The translations under genes were made by a program, and so were the position numbers. DNA of 64,000 nucleotides. It comes from Qipengyuania gelatinilytica (GTDB lineage: Bacteria; Pseudomonadota; Alphaproteobacteria; Sphingomonadales; Sphingomonadaceae). Where the stretch lies: assembly GCF_019711315.1 (NCBI RefSeq), contig NZ_CP081294.1:2046001-2110000 (forward strand). The letters run 5' to 3'. Shown in pieces: positions 58,943-61,174 of the stretch (the first letter of the stretch is position 1; each line of letters opens with the position of its first letter). The notes under the pieces were generated by a model, which searched no databases, had not been told where the DNA came from, and worked only from the letters and a program-made list of their open reading frames with translations.

Positions 58943-59767
58943 TCAATCGCGCAAAAGATCGTTGATACCGGTCTTTTCGCGGGTCTGCGCATCGACGGTC
59001 TTGACGATCACGGCGCAGGCAAGGCCGGGGCCGCCGTTCTTGCCGGGCAGGGTGCCTGGCACGACCACCGAAAAAGGCGGCAGGTGCCCACGGATGACCT
59101 CGCCCGTGTCGCGGTAGACGATCTTGGTCGACTGGGTGATGAAGACACCCATCGAGACCACGCAGCCTTCGCCGACGATCACGCCTTCGACGATTTCGCT
59201 GCGCGCGCCGATGAAGCAATTGTCGCCGATGATGGTGGGGTTGGCCTGCATCGGTTCGAGCACGCCGCCGATGCCTGCGCCGGCCGAGATATGGCAGTTC
59301 TCGCCGATCTGCGCGCAGGAGCCGATGCTGGCCCAGGTATCGACCATGGTGCCCTTGCCGACATAGGCGCCGATGTTGACGAAGCTGGGCATCAGCACGC
59401 AGCCCGGCGCAATATAGGCGCCTTCGCGGGCCACGGCCCCCGGCACGACGCGGAAGCCCGCCTCACGGAAACGGGCATCGTCCCAACCGGCAAACTTGCC
59501 CGGCACCTTGTCGAAGGCCGGATGGCCTGCGCTGCCGCCGTCCATCACGCGGTTGTCGTTGAGACGGAACGACAGGAGCACGGCTTTCTTGAGCCACTGG
59601 TTGACGATCCAGCCACCCTTGCCGTCGGGCTCGGCCACGCGGCCTTCACCGCTGTCGAGCATCGCCAGCGCTGCATTGACCGCTTCGCGCACGTCGCTCG
59701 ACTGCGGCGTGACGTTGGCGCGGTCTTCCCACGCGGCTTCGATGCGGTTTTCGAGGTCGGCGCTCAT
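58943..59767 (-). CDS. dapD: 2,3,4,5-tetrahydropyridine-2,6-dicarboxylate N-succinyltransferase
   Basis: 274 residues from ATG 59767. The left-handed beta-helix with hexapeptide repeats covers about residues 105-220 (for example [37 protein letters not shown]). It transfers succinyl from succinyl-CoA to THDP in lysine/diaminopimelate synthesis. The upstream region is taken up by the large structured element at 59820-60089. Confidence 0.97.
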
Positions 59768-59819
59768 GCTGGTCTCCGTTTGAACTTGCGGAGCGGTCGT
59801 TAGCAGCGTGGGCGCGCGA

Positions 59820-60089
59820 GGGTCCAGAGCCCCGGCCCGCAATGATCTAGATCGCCCGGAAAAACTTGTTGGCAAGGAGTGCTGCGCTGTCGCGTAGCAA
59901 TTGCTACGCGCAAGCAAACGACGCTGCCCAACAAGTTTTTCCGGGCGACCGCCGAAGGCGGCGGGCGAATTTGCTTACGCAGCAGCGTTGCTCGTCGCTA
60001 ACGATGCTAAGGCATCGCGCGCTTCTCGCGCCTAGCTGCGCAACCAAATTCGCTCCGTCTAGACCACTGCGGGCCGGAACTCTGGACCC
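59820..60089. repeat. 270-bp element of nested inverted repeats (cloverleaf-like)
   Basis: Outer arms: 59820-59851 pairs with 60058-60089 (32 nt, few mismatches; GGGTCCAGAG / CTCTGGACCC at the ends). Inside are three side arms. Arm A is a perfect 21-bp repeat, 59852-59872 with 59928-59948, whose centre is the perfect 20-bp palindrome 59891-59910. Arm B is CCGCC-GAA-GGCGG at 59949-59961. Arm C is 59965-59984 with 60034-60053 (17 of 20 match), centred on CGATGC-TAAG-GCATCG (60002-60017). It lies between two minus-strand genes and abuts the stop of the upstream one. It codes for nothing convincing. Confidence 0.85.
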
Positions 60090-61174
60090 TAATCCATCCC
60101 TGCCGCGACCGCGAATTCATAGGCGCGGTCGACCAGCGGTCCGACACGTTCGCTCATCGATTTGGCGTGGGCGGAAGACGCGGTGCCGTCGATCACGCGC
60201 TTCTTGATGCCCTGCATGATCCCTGCAAGCCGGAAGAGGTTGTAGGCGAAATACCAGTCCATCGGCGGAACCGGATAGCCGGTCTTCGCGACATAACGCT
60301 CGACCGCCTCGTCCTGCGAAGGGATGCCAAGCTCTTCCAGGTCGAGGCCCTCGAGGCCGGCACGCCCGTCATGCGGGTTGTGCCAGTTGAGCATGAGATA
60401 GCTGAAATCCGCGATCGGATCGCCGAGCGTCGACAGCTCCCAGTCGAGCACGGCGAGGACCTTGTTCTCGTCCTTCTCGAAAATCATGTTGTCGAGGCGA
60501 TAGTCGCCGTGGACGACGCTGCTTTCATGCTGCGGCGGGATGGTCTGCGGCAGCCATTCGATCAGCCGCTCCATCTTGGGCATGTGCTCGGTTTCGGAGA
60601 GCTTGTACTGCTTCGACCACCGCGCGATCTGGCGCGCGCAATAGTCGGTCGGCTTCCCGTAGTCGCCGAGGCCGATCTCGTCCGGCTTGCGCAGGTGGAG
60701 CTCGGCCATGGTGTCGATCATGGCATTGTAGATTTCGCGGCGTTCTTCGGGCGTGTTGTTCGGCAGCGAGCCGTTCCACAGCGAGCGGCCATCGGCCAGT
60801 CCCATGACGAAGAACTTCGAACCAATGACCTCCGGATCTTCGCAAAGCCCGTAAGTCTTGGGCACAGGGAAGCCCGTCGGCCCGAGCGCGTGCATGGCCT
60901 TGTATTCACGGTCCACCGCATGCGCGCTCGGCAGCAATTTGCCGAAGGGCTGGCGCCGGAGGACGTAAGAGCGGCCGGGGGTGTCGATCCGGTAGGTCGG
61001 ATTCGACTGGCCGCCCTTGAACTTCGAATAGGAGATCGGGCCTTCGAAGCCATCGACATTGGCTTCGAACCAGGCTGTCAGCTTGTCCATGTCGAGCTGG
61101 TCGCGCTCGGGCACGTCGATGGTGCCGACCATTTCCTTGTCGAAATCGATTTCGGGCATGCCTGTTTCGCTCAT
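60089..61174 (-). CDS. Phosphotransferase (APH/ACAD10-like)
   Basis: 361 residues from ATG 61174, sharing one base with the ADH stop (TGATG). The kinase-like core shows KGGQSNPTYRI, the catalytic VVHGDYRLDNMIF and metal site VLDWELSTLGDP. Aminoglycoside-phosphotransferase fold members next to acyl-CoA dehydrogenases are thought to phosphorylate hydroxyacyl-CoA intermediates, so resistance is unlikely to be its role. Confidence 0.88.
   Translation of the reverse strand: MSETGMPEIDFDKEMVGTIDVPERDQLDMDKLTAWFEANVDGFEGPISYSKFKGGQSNPTYRIDTPGRSYVLRRQPFGKLLPSAHAVDREYKAMHALGPTGFPVPKTYGLCEDPEVIGSKFFVMGLADGRSLWNGSLPNNTPEERREIYNAMIDTMAELHLRKPDEIGLGDYGKPTDYCARQIARWSKQYKLSETEHMPKMERLIEWLPQTIPPQHESSVVHGDYRLDNMIFEKDENKVLAVLDWELSTLGDPIADFSYLMLNWHNPHDGRAGLEGLDLEELGIPSQDEAVERYVAKTGYPVPPMDWYFAYNLFRLAGIMQGIKKRVIDGTASSAHAKSMSERVGPLVDRAYEFAVAAGMD

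Follow-up and report, generated by a model that had tools for sequence, protein, structure and literature searches.

Insertion sequences of the IS427 and IS1031 subgroups of the IS5 family duplicate TA or TNA on insertion, use a YTAR target, and have ends that start with G. REP/RAYT systems, which use an IS200-like mechanism, are not known to leave a target duplication. Among short dispersed bacterial repeats, Correia elements have terminal repeats, a target duplication, and TA at their ends, according to the excerpt consulted of PMC2229807. The element described here lies in a stretch of 64,000 nucleotides of the Qipengyuania gelatinilytica genome (the window). We conclude that it is probably a nonautonomous, MITE-like mobile element that inserts at TA or TNA, with inverted hairpins that work in folded, single-stranded form, either as DNA or as RNA. 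That it is mobile is close to certain, and we are hardly less confident of its insertion at TA or TNA.

The element sits between a phosphotransferase-family gene (APH) and dapD, both on the minus strand (Table 1). On that strand it forms a four-way junction, in which the 32-bp outer stem P1 opens, P2, P3, and P4 follow, and P1 closes, with no unpaired bases at the junction. The inverted repeats comprise an outer pair (59819-59851 and 60058-60090; 33 nt, 88% match), the perfect 21-bp arms of P4 (59852-59872 and 59928-59948), the arms of P2 (59965-59983 and 60035-60053; 19 nt, 89%), and a central palindrome (59886-59900 and 59901-59915; 87%). The minus-strand fold reaches -208.2 kcal/mol, compared to -130.3 (SD, 5.2) in shuffled sequences (n = 100; z = -14.95), and the plus-strand fold also departs from shuffles (z = -11.4). 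The mismatches of P1 in this copy are all G.U on the minus strand, where the stem is uninterrupted. The original prediction of a cloverleaf of nested inverted repeats at 59820-60089 is thus confirmed by repeat search and fold, and the repeat coordinates agree with its claim that the arms adjoin with almost no spare bases. Open reading frames cross the element as ORF extensions (59866-60207 on the plus strand and 58943-59917 on the minus strand), and such frames could be misannotated as false genes or false N-terminal extensions.

Table 1. Features of the element and its surroundings, in window coordinates
Feature	Position	Strand	Basis or remark
Whole element	59820..60089	- (taken as sense)	270 bp, G...C ends; limits set by the empty site of relatives
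Outer stem P1, 5' arm (sense)	60058..60089	-	Inverted-repeat search and minus-strand fold
Outer stem P1, 3' arm (sense)	59820..59851	-	Inverted-repeat search and minus-strand fold
Hairpin P2, long stem and tandem G.A core	59962..60057	-	Covariance models R1 and R2 match the minus strand
Small hairpin P3	59949..59961	-	CCGCC-TTC-GGCGG on minus; GAA loop on plus
Hairpin P4, inverted homologue of P2	59852..59948	+	R1 matches the plus strand
Target-site TA adjoining the upstream gene	60090..60091	.	With element G (60089), forms the TAG stop codon of that gene, minus strand
Second target-site copy	59818..59819	.	GA on plus (TC on minus); one substitution away from TA
dapD, tetrahydrodipicolinate N-succinyltransferase, downstream, outside the element	58943..59767	-	Pfam PF14805, PF14602
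Phosphotransferase-family gene (Pfam APH), upstream; TAG stop ends inside the element	60089..61066	-	Pfam PF01636

Sites that lack the element reveal how it came to lie here. Both flanks were joined without the element and searched against 60 genomes of the genus. A single continuous match over nearly the whole query was obtained in 43 of them, and one more genome (G012) gave a continuous match starting at query base 155. In thirteen genomes, either a single flank matched or the other one lay elsewhere or about 2.5 kb off; two had no match, and only the genome of origin was split by the 270-bp element. In the 30 of the 43 contiguous genomes whose junctions were read, an intact TAG stop codon occupies the insertion point. 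Most relatives carry the empty junction GGATGGACTAGCGCG, in contrast to GGATGGATTA, the 270-bp element, and TCGCGCG in the window; where the window has TCGCGCG after the element, most relatives have CTAGCGCG. The window element is thus an insertion into the TA of the upstream TAG stop. TA was duplicated on insertion, its distal copy is now one base off, and in this lineage the first G of the element restores TAG. The element had been predicted to abut this stop codon; it even supplies the G (60091-60089, minus strand).

A second locus (L014) is filled in 3 and contiguous in 54 of the 57 matching genomes (60 searched). Where the element is lacking, stop and start codons overlap there as TRATG; the filled site reads TAA, 266 bp, TA(A/G)TG (six junctions read), and the duplication is a three-base TNA. 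Target duplications had been proposed as a check on copies of the element, and at these two loci TA/TNA duplications occur together with empty sites. The suggestion of a nonautonomous, MITE-like mobile repeat is supported by the empty sites, the duplications, and the dispersed copies described below. Indeed, the element has the general traits of MITEs, being short and noncoding, with terminal inverted repeats, dispersed copies, and a target duplication with an empty site. The other suggestion, a structured RNA in the dapD leader, is unsupported, because in 43 of the 60 genus genomes the two genes adjoin in the same way and the element is lacking. The constraint on the folding of a specific strand is real, but it is a property of the mobile element and not of a dapD leader.

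The original prediction looked to dispersed copies as a sign of mobility. In its own genome the element occurs once (blastn and two covariance models), and copies are found in relatives. With blastn, related copies were detected in 4 of 60 relatives, all at other loci. Covariance model R1, built on P2 from five copies (the window copy and relatives), matches P2 of the window copy at 59945-60064 on the minus strand (121.5 bits) and finds clear members in 9 of the 60 genus genomes, plus one weak match; there are 13 matches in G073 (two truncated or partial) and 6 in G074. Across the family, R1 matches 80 of 397 genomes (36 of 96 genera) and scores as many as nine matches in a genome. A pattern search of named genomes for the core motif returned at least 116 stretches, 80 of them listed. 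The matches listed, as judged by record titles, include Gammaproteobacteria, Zetaproteobacteria, Acidobacteria, Acidimicrobiia, Verrucomicrobia, Chitinophagales, Myxococcales, Thermodesulfobacteriota, Eremiobacterota, and others. Searches outside the family used a covariance model of the core, R2, which in the window copy matches P2 with 72 bits (G000:C1:2105975-2106044, minus strand, corresponding to window positions 59975-60044). R2 matches 69 of 398 Pseudomonadota genomes (37 of 212 genera) and 30 of 149 genomes from the phylum of an acidobacterial MAG, with at least 33 copies in each of two genomes. It does not match everywhere, since only 3 of 296 genomes from the phylum of a Chitinophagales MAG are hit.

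The copies lie mostly at different loci, with shared flanks in only six pairs among 94 loci. A phage or plasmid origin was considered and rejected: the exact core pattern is absent from viral_contigs, the window copy has no match in phages, two own-family copies have none in plasmids, and one gammaproteobacterial copy matches four plasmid records in part. We found no name for the element in the titles and abstract openings of open-licence literature (including PMC10969869, PMC2229807, PMC3852290, and PMC3116915), which, given that scope, is weak evidence.

The ends and the length of the element are well defined. Own-family loci number 147; at one of them the downstream sequence is too short, and a clear outer stem is present at 112 of the remaining 146. 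Ends were called in 94 copies without use of the flank letters, and they reveal the pattern Y-TA|G...C|TA-R. TA is found on the 5' side in 56 of the 94, on the 3' side in 58, and on both in 37; Y occupies position -3 in 82 and R position +3 in 81. Length is 266 to 269 bp in 76 of these copies, whereas their terminal repeats are of different types (GAGC, 54; GGGTC, 17; GACC, 13; others, 10). Stop codons are frequent targets: among the genes that run into the element, 78 were called with confidence, and 40 of these end in a stop formed exactly at its edge, TAG in every case. The idea that the outer stem is copied out of the target flank, which came from the uvrB copy (L007), was rejected because copies in G073 share arms at different loci.

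An inverted repeat lies near 73 of 99 loci taken from the core-motif search and from the R2 searches of Pseudomonadota and of the acidobacterial phylum (some of them again Sphingomonadales). Its span falls mainly into two classes, about 265 to 300 bp and about 145 to 170 bp, and shorter spans are inner stems. The class of about 145 to 170 bp carries a single hairpin, for example in Acidobacteria and Chitinophagales. One copy (L214; G073 C18:51263-51425) is a one-hairpin form made from P4 alone, and other modular derivatives (L035, L199, and L031/L032) include internally deleted copies and copies in which the small hairpin has been replaced. The derivatives suggest that the hairpins are exchangeable modules. 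The acidobacterial genome G970 has at least 94 matches to the terminal repeat, and it contains very short palindromes with little beyond two terminal repeats (C206:59836-59891 and C25:49037-49130).

In an alignment of 84 full copies with 92 pairs, 7,319 of 7,713 paired cells hold standard pairs, and many positions of P1 use all four Watson-Crick types. Stem sequences change from copy to copy and pairing is kept; the stems are maintained by compensatory change in a dispersed family of nearly fixed length. The two large hairpins are homologous to each other. R1, a model of P2, also matches P4 of the window copy on the plus strand (59845-59965; 41.8 bits, E = 1.1e-6), and in many copies it likewise detects P4 on the strand opposite to P2; in a Thiodiazotropha copy (L144), the two hairpins score 61.8 and 60.3 bits.

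The imperfect pairs show on which strand each hairpin is constrained. Counts of G.U against A.C in the 84 copies are 80:73 in P1, 186:21 in P2 (stem, 92:14; core, 94:7), and 17:65 in P4 (stem, 13:46; core, 4:19). In 30 nonredundant copies (<75% identical) they are 29:23, 74:9, and 7:27, respectively (Fisher test of P2 versus P4, 1e-12). In the cross-phylum set, P2 gives 36:11 (41 of 53 hairpins used) and P4, counted on its own (opposite) strand, gives 7:0 (7 hairpins). As the signs are opposite within one element, they are not due to a mutational strand bias. Thus, the single-strand constraint acts on one strand in P2 and on the other in P4, and the two hairpins are an inverted, homologous pair. 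P1 is strand symmetric, as expected for terminal repeats. We are confident that the hairpins are under single-strand selection, and the wobble signature fits RNA and single-stranded DNA (ssDNA) equally well.

The core of P2 contains three blocks of tandem G.A mismatches, with one or two Watson-Crick pairs between blocks. The G and A letters of these blocks are present in 73 to 83 of the 84 copies, and a fourth site is GC/AA in some copies and GA/GA in others (A in 54 and C in 30 on one side; G in 55 and A in 29 on the other). Own-family P4 cores, inspected by eye without counting, have no tandem G.A blocks. The P2 core, with three to four blocks, recurs across phyla in the core-motif search. 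An alignment of 65 chosen cores has 87.8% paired cells and a covariation of 0.543, compared to 0.171 when shuffled and at most 0.123 in slid controls; the invariance in this alignment is owed partly to the exact-pattern search by which the cores were collected. The triloop of P3 fits GNA in 61 of the 84 copies, read on the antisense strand in 51 and on the sense strand in 10; this loop type is known for very stable DNA mini-hairpins.

We consider it somewhat probable that an IS5-type enzyme moves the element. The TA/TNA duplication, the YTAR target, and the G-starting ends are those of the IS427 and IS1031 subgroups. A DDE transposase of this type, acting in trans on the ends, would account for both the G...C ends and the TA/TNA target. 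Candidate relatives were seen among genes with PF13340, which we take to be an IS5-type transposase domain. In G204, transposon-like PF13340 genes lie within repeats that have GAGCCTG... or GAGCCTGATCC... ends and T.A flanks, and in G193 a PF13340 repeat has the terminal repeat CTAGGCTGTGGTGAC, generally resembling the GCAGCCCGTGGTGAAAG ends of elements in acidobacterial G970. The ends of both are related to the element ends but not identical, and PF13340 is absent from four of eight carrier genomes and below threshold in a fifth. Among the matches listed in the genomes tried, many of them draft assemblies, no autonomous insertion sequence with the same ends was found, and the terminal repeat of G073 occurs in element copies or fragments. 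Twenty acidobacterial stretches around single or paired terminal repeats, among the matches listed, include none with a second end at the distance of an insertion sequence, and 28 long ORFs from 15 of them match no transposase family in Pfam. In two gammaproteobacterial symbiont loci (L066, from about 6341, and L144), a shared ORF looks like an IS91/IS801-type transposase.

It is unlikely that the element is instead REPIN-like, that is, an inverted hairpin pair moved as ssDNA by a tyrosine transposase (RAYT/IS200 type) in trans. In the portion consulted of PMC3116915, REPINs are characterized by inverted hairpins that fold as single strands, compensatory stems, and a spacer of constrained length, and the strand-specific wobble would fit recognition of ssDNA. 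However, the TA/TNA duplication at a symmetric YTAR target and the long terminal inverted repeats fit a DDE enzyme better. Moreover, when 2,899 ORFs from core-motif and R2 loci were clustered, every cluster stayed within 9 loci, and by eye the 14 clusters shown include no recognizable, widely shared transposase (pairs >92% identical left out). The original description of the element as REP-like therefore holds as an analogy, for the inverted hairpin pair; as a class assignment it conflicts with the TA/TNA duplication, which does not fit REP/RAYT, and with the lack of a linked transposase at the loci seen. A MITE derived from IS630/Tc1-mariner, with a strict TA target, is a rather improbable source. 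TA on both sides of 37 of the 94 copies, and on one side of many more, would be expected of it, but the three-base TNA at L014 and the G-starting ends fit the IS5 subgroups better.

It is also improbable that the element is a host cis-acting structured RNA (a dapD leader, terminator, or mRNA stabilizer) whose copies are kept for regulating their neighbors. Single-strand selection with G.U wobble would be in keeping with such an RNA, as would an old copy (L277/L284) that two genera share between pyruvate dehydrogenase E1 genes (L277, approximately 1012 to 1279; by Pfam, E1_dh on one side and lipoyl and Transket_pyr on the other). Flanks there are 73 and 78% identical and the element is 67% identical; 23 doubly changed pairs are kept, against 5 doubly broken, with 20 single breaks and 6 single wobbles. 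The L200/L282 copies have 10 kept doubles, 2 doubly broken pairs, 13 single breaks, and 5 wobbles, and L039/L237 (98% identical) have one kept double and no breaks. In three pairings of L012, L014, and L019 (flanks, 90 to 95%), there are 1 to 2 kept doubles, 5 to 7 single breaks, and 3 to 5 single wobbles. All of these counts come from pair lists that pool predicted structures and are biased toward kept pairs. The structure of the old copy has been retained in situ; the young ones look nearly neutral, as single breaks outnumber kept doubles in L012/L014/L019. L277/L284 is a candidate case of co-option, as an RNA element of its operon, and individual copies may be co-opted by their hosts as RNA.

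As an account of the family, however, regulation of neighbors is contradicted by several observations. The element is not conserved upstream of dapD, and its neighbors differ between copies, as the few flank-sharing pairs indicate. An orientation bias relative to host genes, seen with loose gene calls (28 sense versus 11 antisense), was not upheld by stricter calls (16:9, P = 0.23; 12:5, P = 0.14; cross-phylum, 11:11), in which it is not significant. A known structured RNA family finds no support in Rfam 15, which gives no match at the gathering cutoff in the window region (four subthreshold matches, to three unrelated families of microRNA and viral type) and none for 17 of the 80 listed core-motif loci. 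Finally, it is very improbable that hairpin-templated repair keeps the palindromes perfect without selection: arms do match within a copy and differ between copies, and compensations are few in young shared copies, but such repair would remove G.A mismatches, which persist nearly invariant in the core, and could not yield the opposite wobble bias, with its unequal GU and AC counts, in P2 and P4 of one element.

We thus return to a MITE-like element with folded hairpins. The window copy entered the TAG stop of the upstream gene, with TA duplicated and TAG restored by its own first G. The hairpins would be functional parts, most simply one folded single-stranded module per half, and the module may be recognized or protected as ssDNA, for instance at replication forks, or as RNA. 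With an inverted arrangement, each strand would always bear one folded module. We give a role as ssDNA about even chances and regard a role as RNA as a realistic possibility, short of even. More speculatively, these elements could be a cross-phylum mobile class whose heritable identity is the folded single strand itself: a hairpin of three to four tandem G.A blocks, borne on both strands as an inverted pair and read by a widespread putative factor, with stems and terminal repeats free to turn over while pairing and total length are kept. We consider this doubtful, although possible.

The selection of both halves as folded single strands is not expected of plain MITEs, and it offers a direct way to study how small elements in bacteria exploit the structure of ssDNA or RNA, whether for their movement or for being tolerated. 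The family, for which no name was found, resides in stop codons and intergenic regions from Alphaproteobacteria to Acidobacteria, Verrucomicrobia, and Chitinophagales, and its single- or low-copy members escape sequence-based repeat finding.

Overall, the features of this element overlap only partially with those of the systems that it most resembles. Like IS5-family MITEs (IS427/IS1031), it has a TA/TNA duplication, G-starting ends, and terminal inverted repeats and carries no gene of its own; unlike them, it has no same-ended partner among the insertion sequences found, and one structured core is common to many different terminal repeats. The TA/TNA duplications also set it apart from REP/RAYT elements, which are not known to have a target duplication. 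The element is distinguished from REPINs by the duplication at YTAR, the long outer inverted repeat, the tandem G.A core, and the absence of a linked transposase at the loci seen. It resembles REPINs (RAYT-associated REP doublets) in having two inverted hairpin units as the replicating entity, an extragenic location, compensatory stems, and constrained length, and differs in size (about 270 bp, compared to REPIN genomic stretches of about 80 bp), as far as the part consulted of PMC3116915 describes them. Correia/NEMIS and ERIC sequences are likewise short dispersed elements whose transcripts fold as long stem-loops, but they are about 100 to 200 bp long in the text consulted of PMC2229807, shorter than our typical copies; an inverted core-hairpin pair with strand-specific wobble is not described for them in that portion of the source. 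From the 127-bp enterobacterial ERIC consensus, our element differs in length. The Caulobacter CIR is, like our element, an alphaproteobacterial intergenic repeat with two hairpin arms; CIR is contrasted with end-pairing elements in the same excerpt (PMC2229807), whereas here an outer stem encloses all. We conclude that this is a known kind of entity, a small nonautonomous mobile element, with unusual features: a nearly fixed length combined with free stem sequence, frequent insertion into stop codons, inverted hairpins constrained on opposite strands, and a G.A-block core that crosses phyla.
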